Shown here one piece after another: positions 25,626 to 64,000 of a stretch of DNA of 64,000 nucleotides (position 1 is the first letter of the stretch; the number at the start of each line of letters is the position of its first letter). The DNA lies in the NCBI GenBank assembly GCA_017882445.1, contig JADGPK010000001.1, positions 105,130 to 169,129 of the forward strand, read 5' to 3'. The DNA comes from Solirubrobacteraceae bacterium (lineage in GTDB: Bacteria > Actinomycetota > Thermoleophilia > Solirubrobacterales > Solirubrobacteraceae). The notes under the pieces are model-generated. The model saw nothing but the letters and a program-made list of their open reading frames with translations. It had not been told where the DNA came from and did no database searches. The translations under genes were made by a program, and so were the position numbers.

Positions 25626-25662
25626 GCAAGAGGTCCCGCGCTCCTGCTAGCCTCGTTGCAGC

Positions 25663-25736
25663 TGCCGCGACTGGCGCAGAGAGGTGGAAGCGACCACCGG
25701 GAAGCGGCCAGCGAATCCGCCGCGCGCCTGGGCACA
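25663..25736 (+). ncRNA. ZTP (pfl) riboswitch upstream of glyA
   Basis: GCGACUGGCGCAGAGAGGUGGAAGCGACCACCGGGAAGCGGCC....CGCGCGCCUGGGCA matches the pfl/ZTP hallmarks (GACUGGCG, GGUGG/CCACCGGG, CGCCUGGGCA); candidate -10 TAGCCT 25648-25653. Confidence 0.9.
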
Positions 25737-25767
25737 GAAGTCCTCATCGCCTGCCAAGGAGAGCGCC

Positions 25768-58685: not shown

Positions 58686-59894
58686 ATGACCACGCCACAA
58701 CGACAGCCGCTGAACGCCGTGCTCGCGTTCCTGCTCCCGATCCTGCTCGTCTTCGGACTGTGGCTCGGCGGGCATCCGGAACACCTTCCCGGCTTCCTGC
58801 GCAGCACGTTCGTAGCCGATCACCAGACGCGGGTCGTCGACGAAGCGATCCGGCGAATCGCTCACGACTACTACCGCGCGATCCCCACCAACCAGCTGTC
58901 CAACGCCTCGATCTCCGGCGTGGTCTCGAGCCTAGGCGATCGCTTCTCCCACTATCTCACGCCAAGCGAATACCGGGAATTCAACGCTCCGCCGCACTTC
59001 ACCGGCATCGGTGTCGCCGTCGGTCCGGACCCCCGCGGACTGCTGATCGCACGCGTATTCGACGCCTCGCCGGCCATCCGCGCGGGCCTGAAGGCGGGCG
59101 AGCTGATCGTGGCGGTCAACGGGCGCACGCTCAAAGGCCTCTCCGGCGACGCCGCCACCGCGCTCATCAAGGGTCTGCCAGGAACAGACGTCGTGCTCCA
59201 GATCGAGACTCCGCGGACGCGCTCCGCACGCGCGAGCGTCCGCACCCTGAAGATCACGCGCGCGACGATCTCCGAGCCGGTGGTCGCCTCAGCCACGAGG
59301 ACCGTCCGCGGCGTCAGGCTCGGTGTGGTGGCCCTCGCGACGTTCAGTCCGGGGGCGCACGCAGAAGTTCGCGAAGCGGTCGAGCACGAGCTTCACGCGG
59401 GTGCGCGCGGGATAGTGCTCGATCTACGTGACAACGGCGGAGGCCTCGTCGAGGAGGCCCAGATGATCGCGAGCATCTTCATTCCCAGCGGGACGATCGT
59501 CAGCACGCGCGGGCGCACCCAGACGCCCGAGATGCTGATCGCGACCGGCGGCGCGATCTCGACGTCGATCCCGGTGGTGGTCCTCGTCGATGCGAACACA
59601 GCCTCGGCAGCCGAGATCGTCACGGCGGCCCTGCAGGACCATCATCGGGCAACCGTCGTGGGCACCCACACGTTCGGCAAGGGCGTGTTCCAGGAGGAGG
59701 AGTCGCTGTCCAACGGGGGCGCGCTCGACATCACCGTCGGGGAGTACTTCACCCCCGCCGGGCGCAACCTGGGCGGCGGCGGCGTCAAGGAGGGCGCCGG
59801 AATCACCCCCGAAGTGGCTCTCGGGAAGAACCAGGTGGACACACCGCACGGCGTCGATGTGGCGCTCGCGACGCTCGCTGCGAAGGTGAAGTGA
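58686..59894 (+). CDS. S41 family C-terminal processing peptidase with PDZ domain
   Basis: GIVLDLRDNGGGLVEEA, VVLVDANTASAAEIVTAALQDHHRATVVGTHTFGKG. Confidence 0.93.
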   Translation: MTTPQRQPLNAVLAFLLPILLVFGLWLGGHPEHLPGFLRSTFVADHQTRVVDEAIRRIAHDYYRAIPTNQLSNASISGVVSSLGDRFSHYLTPSEYREFNAPPHFTGIGVAVGPDPRGLLIARVFDASPAIRAGLKAGELIVAVNGRTLKGLSGDAATALIKGLPGTDVVLQIETPRTRSARASVRTLKITRATISEPVVASATRTVRGVRLGVVALATFSPGAHAEVREAVEHELHAGARGIVLDLRDNGGGLVEEAQMIASIFIPSGTIVSTRGRTQTPEMLIATGGAISTSIPVVVLVDANTASAAEIVTAALQDHHRATVVGTHTFGKGVFQEEESLSNGGALDITVGEYFTPAGRNLGGGGVKEGAGITPEVALGKNQVDTPHGVDVALATLAAKVK

Positions 59895-61843
59895 GCGCCT
59901 CTCGCCCGCGCAGGCCCGGCGGCTCCAGCGCCTCGAGTCGACCCGCCCCCCCGGACGCCGTCGTGGCGGTGCTGGAGAGACGCGGGCGCTTCCTCGCCGC
60001 TGCGCCGCTGTTTGCGCGACCCGATCGAGTCGCCCCCTCACCGCGTAGGGGAGGCTCGGCGAGCATCACGCTGAAGTCCCTGCGCCCCGAACGGGGAGGT
60101 GGGCGTGATGCGCGTGCGGGGGACCTCGTCCTCGTGCAGGGCGCCGCCCGCGGGTCGACGGGGCGCATCGTGCGCGTCCTCGGTCGTCCCGATGTGGCGC
60201 GTGACGTGATCGAGGGGCTCATGCTCGATCGGGGTCTCAGGCGCGGCTTCGACCCGGCGGTGGAGCGCGAGGCGCGAGCCGCCGGCGAGCACGTCAGGAG
60301 CTCGCAGGGTGGCAGGCGCGATCTGCGCGGGCTGGCGACGTTCACCATCGACCCCGCCAGCGCCCGCGACTTCGACGACGCCATCTCGGCCGAAGAGATC
60401 GGAGATGGCACGACGCGGGTATGGGTCCACATCGCCGATGTCACAGCGCACGTGCGCGAGGGCTCGCTCGTCGACCGCGAGGCGCGCAGACGCGCAACGA
60501 GCGTGTATGTGCCCGGGGCGGTCGAGCCGATGCTTCCCCATGCCCTGTCGAGCGACGCCTGCTCGCTGATGCCCGGGGAGGACCGCCCGGTGGTGACCGT
60601 GGAGTTGGACCTGCGCGGCGCTCTCCTCGCAAGGGCCGCCTTCTACCGCTCCCTGATCCGCTCGGATGAACGACTGGACTACGAGCGCGTGGATCGCATC
60701 TTCGCGGGCGGCGAGTCGGCGGCCGAGCCGTGGCGGGAGCCTCTGCGGGCCGCGCGGGAGACGGCGGCGGCGCTTCAGCAGAAGCGCGAGCGGAGCGGCG
60801 CGCTGGTGGTGGAATCGGAGGAGCCCGAGATCTCTTTCGACGAGCAGGGCAACGTCGCGGCCATTTCCACCCGCGTGCAGACAGAGTCCCATCGCCTGAT
60901 CGAGCACCTCATGATCGCCGCCAACGAGGCCGTGGCGGCGCTGCTGGCCCAGCGCGAGGTGCCGTGCCTGTATCGCGTCCACGAGCGTCCCGAGCCCGAA
61001 CGTATCGCCCACCTGGCCGACCAGCTGGCCTCCCTGGAGGTGCCCACCCCGCCGCTGCCTGAGCAGCTGTCCGCCTCGCAGGCCGCCGAGCTCGTCGGCG
61101 AGATCTCAAGGAGGGTCGACGAGCACGTGCGGCGCACGGGCCGAGGACGGTTGGCGCTGAGCTCGCTCGTGCTCCGCTCGCTCAAGCAGGCCTACTACTC
61201 GCCCAGGAACCTCGGCCACGCGGGCCTGCATTCGGCCACCTACTGCCACTTCACGTCGCCCATCCGCCGCTACCCCGATCTGGTCTGCCACCGCGCGCTG
61301 CTCTCCGCGGTCGGCGCAGGGGAGCGCGCGCCGCGCGCCGGAGAGCTCGTGGAGCTCGGTGTGTGGACCTCCGAACGCGAGCGCGACGCCATGACGATCG
61401 AGCGCGACGCGGACGACATCGCGCGCTGCTTCGCCTTGGAGCGCACTCTCTACGAGGACGGCTTCGAGCAGGTCTTCGCGGGGGAGATCACCGGGCTGAT
61501 CTCCGCGGGCGCGTTCGTCGCCTTCGGCCCCGCCGGCGAGGCCGAGGGACAGGAGGTCGTGTCGCCGGCCTACGAGGGCATGCTGCCGGTACGGCTGTTG
61601 CGTGCTCCCCCCGCGACCACCGAGAGGACCCCCAGGGGCCGCAATCAGCGCCGATCTCACGGCACGAGGGACGCCGGTGGCGATCGGGACGGCGCACGCG
61701 AGTGGTGGGAGCTCAACGAGCAGGGCACCATCCTGCAGGGCGAGCGCACCGGGGCGACGCTGCGCTTGAGCGATCCGGTGGAAGTGCGGGTGGCGCGTGT
61801 GGACAGCGTCCGCGGACGCGTCGATCTCCTGCCGGCAGGCTAG
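59891..61843 (+). CDS. rnr: ribonuclease R / RNB-family exoribonuclease
   Basis: FTIDPASARDFDDAISAEEIGDGTTRVWVHIADVTAHV, YCHFTSPIRRYPDLVCHRAL. Confidence 0.93.
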   Translation: MSASRPRRPGGSSASSRPAPPDAVVAVLERRGRFLAAAPLFARPDRVAPSPRRGGSASITLKSLRPERGGGRDARAGDLVLVQGAARGSTGRIVRVLGRPDVARDVIEGLMLDRGLRRGFDPAVEREARAAGEHVRSSQGGRRDLRGLATFTIDPASARDFDDAISAEEIGDGTTRVWVHIADVTAHVREGSLVDREARRRATSVYVPGAVEPMLPHALSSDACSLMPGEDRPVVTVELDLRGALLARAAFYRSLIRSDERLDYERVDRIFAGGESAAEPWREPLRAARETAAALQQKRERSGALVVESEEPEISFDEQGNVAAISTRVQTESHRLIEHLMIAANEAVAALLAQREVPCLYRVHERPEPERIAHLADQLASLEVPTPPLPEQLSASQAAELVGEISRRVDEHVRRTGRGRLALSSLVLRSLKQAYYSPRNLGHAGLHSATYCHFTSPIRRYPDLVCHRALLSAVGAGERAPRAGELVELGVWTSERERDAMTIERDADDIARCFALERTLYEDGFEQVFAGEITGLISAGAFVAFGPAGEAEGQEVVSPAYEGMLPVRLLRAPPATTERTPRGRNQRRSHGTRDAGGDRDGAREWWELNEQGTILQGERTGATLRLSDPVEVRVARVDSVRGRVDLLPAG

Positions 61844-61852
61844 GCTCGGAGC

Positions 61853-62335
61853 ATGGCCAAGGGCAAGGGCAAGCGCAAGATCGGCGCCGGGGACGTGGCA
61901 TCCAACCGCTACGCCTCCCACCGCTACGAGCTGATCGAGCGGCTGGAGTGCGGAATCGTGTTGGAAGGCACCGAGGTCAAGGCTCTACGTACGTCCGGCG
62001 CCCAGCTGAAGGACGGCTATGCCGCGATCCGCGACGGGGAGCTGTGGCTGCACTCCGTGCACGTGCCTCCCTATCAGCCCGCCTCGCGCGAAAACCACGA
62101 ACCCGAACGGCCCCGCAAGCTGCTCCTGCACCGGCGCGAGCTCGACCGCATCGCCGCGCGCGCCAAGGAGCGAGGCCTGACGCTCGTGCCCACCCGCATC
62201 TACTTCACCGGTGCTCACGCCAAGGTCGAGATCGCCCTCGCACGGGGCAAGGATCTCTACGACAAGCGCCAGTCGATCCGCGAGCGCGAGACCAAGCGCG
62301 ACATGGAACGCGCCGTGCGCGAGGCCAGGCGGTAG
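61853..62335 (+). CDS. smpB: SsrA-binding protein
   Basis: NRYASHRYELIERLECGIVLEGTEVKALRTSGAQLKDGYAAIRDGELWL. Confidence 0.97.
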   Translation: MAKGKGKRKIGAGDVASNRYASHRYELIERLECGIVLEGTEVKALRTSGAQLKDGYAAIRDGELWLHSVHVPPYQPASRENHEPERPRKLLLHRRELDRIAARAKERGLTLVPTRIYFTGAHAKVEIALARGKDLYDKRQSIRERETKRDMERAVREARR

Positions 62336-62370: not shown

Positions 62371-63291
62371 TCAGATCGAGCGGAAGCTGTGGCCGGCCGA
62401 GCTGAGGATGTGCGTCTCGTGCATCCCGAACGCAAGCAGCGCGATCAGCCCGATGTAGACCACCCCGACGAGCATGCGGTTGCGGCGCGAGACGCGATAG
62501 TAGGCGGCCTGCTCGAGCGAGCGTGTCTTGCGCTGCTGCCAGCGCCGCCAGGTCTCCATGCCTCCGAACAGGACGATGATCAGCAGGATGGGGTTGGGAA
62601 ACACGAACACCATCGCTACCAGCGCACCGAAGCCCAGGAACCACATCCAGGGCGCCATCGCGGCCATCGCACGTCCACCGTCGAGTGGGACCACCGGCAG
62701 CAGGTTGAAGAGGTTCAGGAAGAACCCCACATAGGCGAGCGCTCGAAGCAGGTCGCTGTTCGTCGCCTCGCCGACCGCCAGGCAGACGCCCGAGCCGATG
62801 GTGCCGAGGATGGGACCGGCCAGTCCGACACGCGCCTCGGCGAGCGCGTTCTCGCCGAGCGACTTCGCCATGATCATGGCACCCAGGAATGGAACGAACA
62901 TCGGCGCGCTCGCCTTGATGCCCTCGCGGCGCAGCTGGATCACATGGCCCATCTCGTGCACGAACAGCAGCACCACGAACCCGGCCGCGAACGTCCAGCC
63001 CCAGAACAGCGAATAGGCGGCGACGGACACCAATGCCGTCCCGGCGGTCGTCAGCAGCTTCAGTTTCGGCAGCAGCAGCACTGCGCCTTTGATCGCAGCG
63101 AAGAACTTGGCCGCAAGCGCTCCGACCGCCGCCAGGGCGCTCCCGATCCGCCGGCGTACGTTGCCCGTCTTATGGCCGCCCGAAGCTCCAAACGGGTTCT
63201 CGCTGGGGTGCGCCGGGAGCACCTCCGCGTGGATGGGCGCCGCCGGTGCGACCGGTGCGCGCGCGGACAGGGAGAGCTCGCGATTGTCCAT
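62371..63291 (-). CDS. site-2 protease family (M50) membrane metallopeptidase
   Basis: LLFVHEMGHVIQLRREGIKASAPMFVPFLGAMI, NLLPVVPLDGGRAM. Confidence 0.9.
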   Translation of the reverse strand: MDNRELSLSARAPVAPAAPIHAEVLPAHPSENPFGASGGHKTGNVRRRIGSALAAVGALAAKFFAAIKGAVLLLPKLKLLTTAGTALVSVAAYSLFWGWTFAAGFVVLLFVHEMGHVIQLRREGIKASAPMFVPFLGAMIMAKSLGENALAEARVGLAGPILGTIGSGVCLAVGEATNSDLLRALAYVGFFLNLFNLLPVVPLDGGRAMAAMAPWMWFLGFGALVAMVFVFPNPILLIIVLFGGMETWRRWQQRKTRSLEQAAYYRVSRRNRMLVGVVYIGLIALLAFGMHETHILSSAGHSFRSI

Positions 63292-63415
63292 GCCTTCATT
63301 GTCGCAGCACCCTTAAGCGTCGCCTAACGCGTCGCGCCCCCCGACAATGTCCCGGACCCGGGGTTCGCGGATGCATTTCTTGCGCAATGTGCGGGATCGA
63401 GTGGCGGGAGGGGGT

Positions 63416-63444
63416 TGCAATGGCCGGGGGTGCGAGCTAGCTTG
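63416..63444 (+). promoter_or_regulatory. promoter TTGCAA-N17-TAGCTT of the structured RNA
   Basis: 17-nt spacer; predicted start ~63451 coincides with the 5' base of the closing stem. Confidence 0.75.
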
Positions 63445-63450
63445 GATCCA

Positions 63451-63574
63451 GACGCGGAACCGATCCGCAAAGAGCGAGGCCACCGAGGTGTGAGGCCGCG
63501 CCACCCACCGAGAAAGGCTCCCGAGCCGGACGAAGTGGGTTCCTCAAGTGGATCGGAACCGCGTCGTTTTTTTG
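63451..63574 (+). ncRNA. unassigned structured small RNA, ~120 nt, terminated by closing stem + T7
   Basis: Closing stem GACGCGG-AA-CCGATCC / GGATCGG-AA-CCGCGTC (63452-63467 with 63551-63566), internal ACCCAC/GTGGGT and GGCT-CCCG-AGCC hairpin, T7 at 63568-63574. Confidence 0.75.
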
Positions 63575-63629: not shown

Positions 63630-63990
63630 GGGGACGACAGGCTTCGACGTGGTCGGCTCGTGGGGATGGTGGCGAGTCGAGGTCCCGGGCGGCCTCGTAA
63701 AACACCCGGGAAAAACATAAGTGCGGACTCTCACGAGTACGCCCTCGCTGCTTAGTCAATAGCTAAGCCGTGAGGTCTCGGGCCCCGCTTGCCTGCGGCG
63801 GGGAAGGCCGGGATCAGAAAGCAGGCTCACCCGGCGCGGTCCGCCTTCGCCAAGTCGGGGAAACTCAGGAGGCTGGTCCCCCACAACCCCGCCGGCGAGG
63901 CGAGTGGGGGACGAGATCAGAGCGCCGGCTACGCTCGTAGAAGCCATTCACACGCGATCACGGACGTGGGTTCGATTCCCACCGTCTCCA
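63630..63990 (+). ncRNA. ssrA: transfer-messenger RNA (tmRNA); apparent tag ADSHEYALAA*
   Basis: GGGGACGACAGGCTTCGACG 5' end, tag ORF GCG GAC TCT CAC GAG TAC GCC CTC GCT GCT TAG (63723-63755), 3' GGTTCGATTCCCACCGTCTCCA; acceptor GGGGACG/CGTCTCC. Confidence 0.96.
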
Positions 63991-64000
63991 CTGGTTCAAC

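Follow-up and report, generated by a model that had tools for sequence, protein, structure and literature searches.

The window analysed here is a 64,000-nucleotide (nt) stretch of the genome of a Solirubrobacteraceae bacterium (contig JADGPK010000001.1), which carries on its forward strand a predicted small RNA gene at 63451-63573. The gene order is: an RNB-domain exoribonuclease of the RNase R/II type (59891-61840, +; Pfam PF00773), smpB (61853-62332, +; PF01668), an M50 peptidase on the opposite strand (62374-63291, -; PF02163), the small RNA, and ssrA (63630-63991, +), which specifies transfer-messenger RNA (tmRNA) with the tag ADSHEYALAA and is a neighbour of the RNA rather than a part of it. 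The RNA would be ~123 nt long including its U-run, its ends being placed by a covariance-model match (63451-63565, 119 bits), the promoter spacing and the T-run. An initial annotation had described an unassigned structured small-RNA gene at this place, with the hexamers TTGCAA and TAGCTT at 17-nt spacing, a long stem, inner hairpins and a T-run. All of these are present, with every coordinate of that annotation 1 too high; corrected positions are used throughout. The pseudoknot, upstream box and second gene copy presented below were absent from it.

The region gives no match in Rfam 15 even at E <= 5, 6S RNA (RF00013) included, the sole match nearby being tmRNA, and divergent homologues of the RNA are likewise without a match. 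No publication dealing with a small RNA of Thermoleophilia turned up in a search of the open-licence literature. Two covariance models, R1 (built from 37 sequences) and R2 (from 50), were used to widen the set of homologues to 75 distinct copies, all found in two families of the order Solirubrobacterales, named here by the submitters' labels: Solirubrobacteraceae and Thermoleophilaceae. The homologues covary strongly, which together with the missing Rfam match bears out the proposal of an unassigned RNA gene. On this comparative basis 63451-63573 almost certainly belongs to a real RNA family, one that appears clearly delimited and has no Rfam 15 match.

Comparison of the homologues shows the RNA folding as a closing helix (P1), a pseudoknotted hairpin (P2) and a variable hairpin (P3). 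P1 is formed by a 5' strand GACGCGG-AA-CCGATCCGC (63451-63468) and a 3' strand at 63548-63565; its core consists of GACGCGG-AA-CCGATCC (63451-63466) and the complementary GGATCGG-AA-CCGCGTC (63550-63565), followed by a G at 63566 and seven T residues at 63567-63573. P2 (63474-63501) pairs GCG-A-GGCC (63474-63481) with GGCC-G-CGC (63494-63501) around the loop ACCGAGGUGUGA. P3 (63503-63540) pairs ACCCAC (63503-63508) with GTGGGT (63535-63540) and has a variable apical part, which is exposed and ranges from 22 to 51 nt among the copies. The window sequence folds more stably than its dinucleotide shuffles (z = -3.5), and the same holds for the homologues (median z = -3.6, with 95% below -2, in 40 copies).

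Covariation analysis, which the initial annotation had named as a check, reveals compensatory changes in all three helices. In 37 aligned sequences both sides have changed in 11 of the 26 pairs of P1, P2 and P3 (slid controls give 2-6 such pairs, shuffles 3.7 on average), and 95.8% of the alignment cells pair. The GGCC:GGCC of P2 is replaced in homologues by AGCC:GGCU, CGAUC:GAUCG or AGCCC:GGGCU, and the ACC:GGU of P3 by GCG:CGC, UCC:GGA or GCU:AGC. G-U pairs outnumber A-C mismatches (61 versus 29), and therefore the plus strand is favoured as the transcribed one.

The pseudoknot joins GAGG in the P2 loop (63485-63488) to CCUC between P3 and P1 (63542-63545). Its segments were read off an alignment whose underlying model lacks the pseudoknot, so that the fit did not favour it; the 3' half was allowed to shift by one base. 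All 53 distinct combinations of loop and strand are perfectly Watson-Crick paired, whereas shuffled partners yield 26.4 on average and never more than 35, and other registers of the P2 loop pair in at most 7 of the 53. Every departure from GAGG:CCUC (17 of 17) is compensated, namely as GGGA:UCCC, GGGG:CCCC, AGGG:CCCU, GAGA:UCUC, GGAA:UUCC, GGAU:AUCC or GGGU:ACCC. The P2 loop ends with UGUGA (63489-63493), an instance of a YGNRA element that fits 73 of the 75 distinct copies; sequences of this type occur in T-loops and GNRA-like turns. The most conserved residues outside the pairing strands (AAAGA and YGNRA) all lie within the folded core.

These patterns bear on the idea of a trans-acting base-pairing RNA, whose targets would bind either the tip of P3 or a P2 loop that opens transiently. 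It would suit the finding that genomes hold 1-3 paralogues whose P3 tips vary, and the commonest P2 loop holds GAGGUG, which resembles a Shine-Dalgarno sequence. This resemblance is gone, however, where the pseudoknot pair has changed (GGGA, GAGA, GGAA), which indicates that internal pairing is what is conserved. Moreover, the tip of P3 often forms a tight, capped hairpin, and no exposed stretch is conserved. We consider a base-pairing mode unlikely. A role of the GAGGUG loop as a ribosome decoy was rejected on the same ground: the sequence changes along with its pseudoknot partner.

Upstream of P1 lie a putative -35 box TTGCAA (63415-63420, +) and, after a 17-nt spacer, a -10 box TAGCTT (63438-63443, +). 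In homologues TTGCA or TTGAC, a spacer of 16-18 nt and TAnnTT recur before P1 at an almost constant distance; the 17-nt spacer is the best in 54 of 74 distinct upstream regions, and the best promoter consensus score averages 7.4 against 6.1 in shuffled sequence. About 30 base pairs (bp) above the promoter we find a conserved box, TTTCTTGCGCAATGTGCGGGATC (63376-63398, +), with the inverted repeat CGCA-ATG-TGCG at 63383-63393, centred at about -63 from the predicted 5' end. Its consensus, TTT..CGSAAR.TGCGGGATC, often contains the palindrome CGCA-N3-TGCG. Of the 75 distinct upstream regions, 72 contain it with at most 3 mismatches, in 59 cases at -67 to -70. High scores are almost confined to copies of the RNA in ~3 Mb of scanned strand; since the matrix was trained on those copies themselves, this shows specificity and not independent discovery. 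The box is probably a regulator site. At the other end, the U-run (63567-63573, +) probably forms a terminator with P1, and most copies are rich in U at their 3' end. Judged from these motifs, the sigma-70-type promoter and terminator expected of a stand-alone bacterial small RNA gene appear to be in place.

Copies were found in 68 of the 232 genomes of the order (1-3 per carrier genome), and a blastn search over 61 genomes placed them in most members of the genus. Cultured carriers include Solirubrobacter soli DSM 22325 and S. phytolaccae KCTC 29190. Searches at class and phylum level returned copies in the same two families only, apart from two coding-like false positives; those at phylum level were all in the same family. 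The two false positives (L066 and L067, E ~0.003) lack the P2/pseudoknot core. Two further candidates (G031, G162) were judged to be chance matches without a convincing pseudoknot, and pattern matches in Acidobacteria, Frankia, Polyangium and others failed the covariance model. One weakly scoring candidate (G670), with ssrA downstream of it, could be a copy that has decayed or diverged. The RNA is also carried by records labelled 'Chlamydiae bacterium' (CAJCHW; L093, L095), a label that is probably wrong.

Tandem pairs or triplets occur in three genomes (G011, G665 and G697). At the level of loci we observed three tandem copies in L174 and two each in L175 and L008; the pseudoknots in L174 differ between copies, each being compensated. 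Such tandem copies, together with inverted ends and the presence of several copies, might indicate a palindromic mobile repeat (a miniature inverted-repeat transposable element, or one like the repetitive extragenic palindromic elements) rather than a gene. Against this stand the small number of copies, a synteny with ssrA that spans distant genera, the conservation of promoter and box outside the palindrome and the compensatory pseudoknot, all of which make a mobile repeat extremely improbable.

The genes downstream differ from copy to copy, which counts against a cis-acting leader. The adjacency to tmRNA, put forward in the initial annotation, is real in the window and within Solirubrobacteraceae, where every tmRNA detected at a locus of the RNA follows it on the same strand, ~50-4500 nt downstream. 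It does not define the RNA: usually one copy per Solirubrobacteraceae genome has ssrA downstream while dispersed copies do not, and tmRNA is found in none of five Thermoleophilaceae loci (13-16 kb each) that carry the RNA. Because paralogues and Thermoleophilaceae copies lie elsewhere, the ssrA linkage looks like an inherited position within one family, not a requirement; for the same reason the rnr-smpB-ssrA neighbourhood was not taken as a sign that the RNA is functionally linked to trans-translation. The window's own genome holds such a paralogue (77% identity by blastn), situated between a two-component system and dtd. This copy (L043:5008-5559) stops some tens of bases short of dtd, the gene for D-Tyr-tRNA deacylase, and may be in the dtd leader.

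A riboswitch or attenuator controlling the downstream gene (here ssrA) would account for the aptamer-like pseudoknotted junction followed by a U-run, for the distance of only ~60 nt to ssrA in the window and for the closeness of the paralogue to dtd. Like pseudoknotted riboswitch aptamers, the RNA has a three-helix core with a loop paired to a junction strand; unlike these, it is tied to no downstream gene, has its own U-run end and showed no conserved expression platform. The variable downstream genes and ssrA distances argue against this explanation too. A GGAACC/GGUUCC switch had been suggested earlier, and both sequences are indeed present in the window, but they occur together in just 15 of the 75 distinct copies (other alternative pairings were not searched for), so this switch is not conserved. 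Overall, a cis-acting role seems very unlikely. Elsewhere in the window (25657-25740, +) there is a ZMP/ZTP riboswitch (RF01750, 52.6 bits).

The relation to 6S RNA deserves separate attention. RF00013 matches 41 genomes of a further family (f3), many above the gathering score (loci L196-L230, from f3 and Thermoleophilaceae (f2) genomes), and no Solirubrobacteraceae genome. A 6S covariance model built from Solirubrobacterales sequences (R3) detects 6S in 23 of 29 Thermoleophilaceae, and R2 detects the RNA in 10 of the same 29. At E <= 0.01 the R3 model finds 6S in 0 of 36 good Solirubrobacteraceae genomes, and in 0 of 121 in another scan; the window's own genome is negative with both RF00013 and R3. 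No copy of the RNA was found in f3. Genuine 6S RNA thus occurs in Thermoleophilia, unlike the published description of 6S as widespread except in Actinobacteria (PMC9130861).

Seven Thermoleophilaceae genomes hold both canonical 6S and the RNA, and because of this the two are distinct; the RNA is there not the sole 6S-type RNA of the genome, a weak test given that some bacteria carry two 6S RNAs. Like 6S, the RNA stands alone as a small RNA, has a long terminal stem that closes it, and bears a small hairpin towards its 3' side. 6S binds RNA polymerase holoenzyme and serves as a template for product RNAs; its central bubble mimics an open promoter. A drastically shortened 6S, or a functional replacement of it that binds RNA polymerase, would fit this loosely similar topology (closing stem, arm, small 3'-side hairpin), the undetectable 6S in Solirubrobacteraceae and the lack of the RNA in f3. 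Yet the RNA matches no 6S model, coexists with 6S, is shorter and is pseudoknotted: instead of two long arms around a large single-stranded bubble it has one long stem and a P2 of just 7 bp with a pseudoknotted loop, leaving neither a second long arm nor an open bubble. In addition, 6S in this order is ~155 nt long with a different conserved sequence. We therefore regard a derived 6S as unlikely. The loss of 6S in the family richest in the RNA is suggestive of replacement, not evidence of shared function. Decidedly speculative is the scenario of a novel kind of globally acting regulatory RNA that binds a protein, perhaps RNA polymerase; it would have emerged alongside 6S in Solirubrobacterales and assumed the role of 6S in Solirubrobacteraceae, in which 6S is no longer detected.

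Ms1, a structured actinobacterial RNA that binds the RNA polymerase core, has been described as structurally related to 6S, in a main text that does not mention Thermoleophilia (PMC9130861). Both Ms1 and the RNA are structured RNAs from actinobacteria. In a comparison confined to gene neighbourhood, Ms1 lies in a HAD-hydrolase/oxidoreductase setting and the window RNA, which matches no Rfam family, beside smpB, the M50 peptidase and ssrA; in one Thermoleophilaceae locus (L162) a HAD hydrolase adjoins the RNA. With tmRNA (RF00023) the RNA shares a pseudoknot and, in Solirubrobacteraceae, the genomic neighbourhood; it differs in being a separate gene with neither a tRNA-like part nor a tag frame.

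The promoter, the box and the U-rich end are seen again at dispersed as well as tandem copies, and the gene is very probably a stand-alone one acting in trans. The conserved residues are buried and the exposed tip is variable; every copy comes with a promoter and an end of its own, amid differing neighbours. Taken together, this suggests a folded RNA that acts in trans and has a protein partner. The best explanation overall, to which we assign a probability of roughly 0.5, is a regulated, compactly folded trans-acting RNA that binds a protein. A DNA-binding regulator at the CGCA-N3-TGCG box near -63, a class-I activator position, would switch expression; a ~120-nt RNA would be made from its own sigma-70-type promoter and end at the U-run directly after P1; and this RNA would act as a rigid fold, binding its protein via the conserved junction and pseudoknot core, in the manner of 6S RNA or Ms1 rather than through an exposed antisense seed. 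Its parts differ in strength: a dedicated upstream regulator seems reasonably likely, whereas the protein-binding mode is tentative, with odds a little short of even. Several points weigh on the other side. The RNA may have a ligand or a base-pairing target, the upstream box could belong to the promoter and not be a regulator site, and 14 of the 36 good Solirubrobacteraceae genomes have no clear copy, so that the RNA is either not universal in this family or has diverged beyond the model.

Culturable Solirubrobacter strains are found to hold an RNA family with a well-supported pseudoknot and a conserved upstream box, and the distribution of this RNA against that of 6S turns the possible replacement of 6S by another structured RNA into a question that can be tested.
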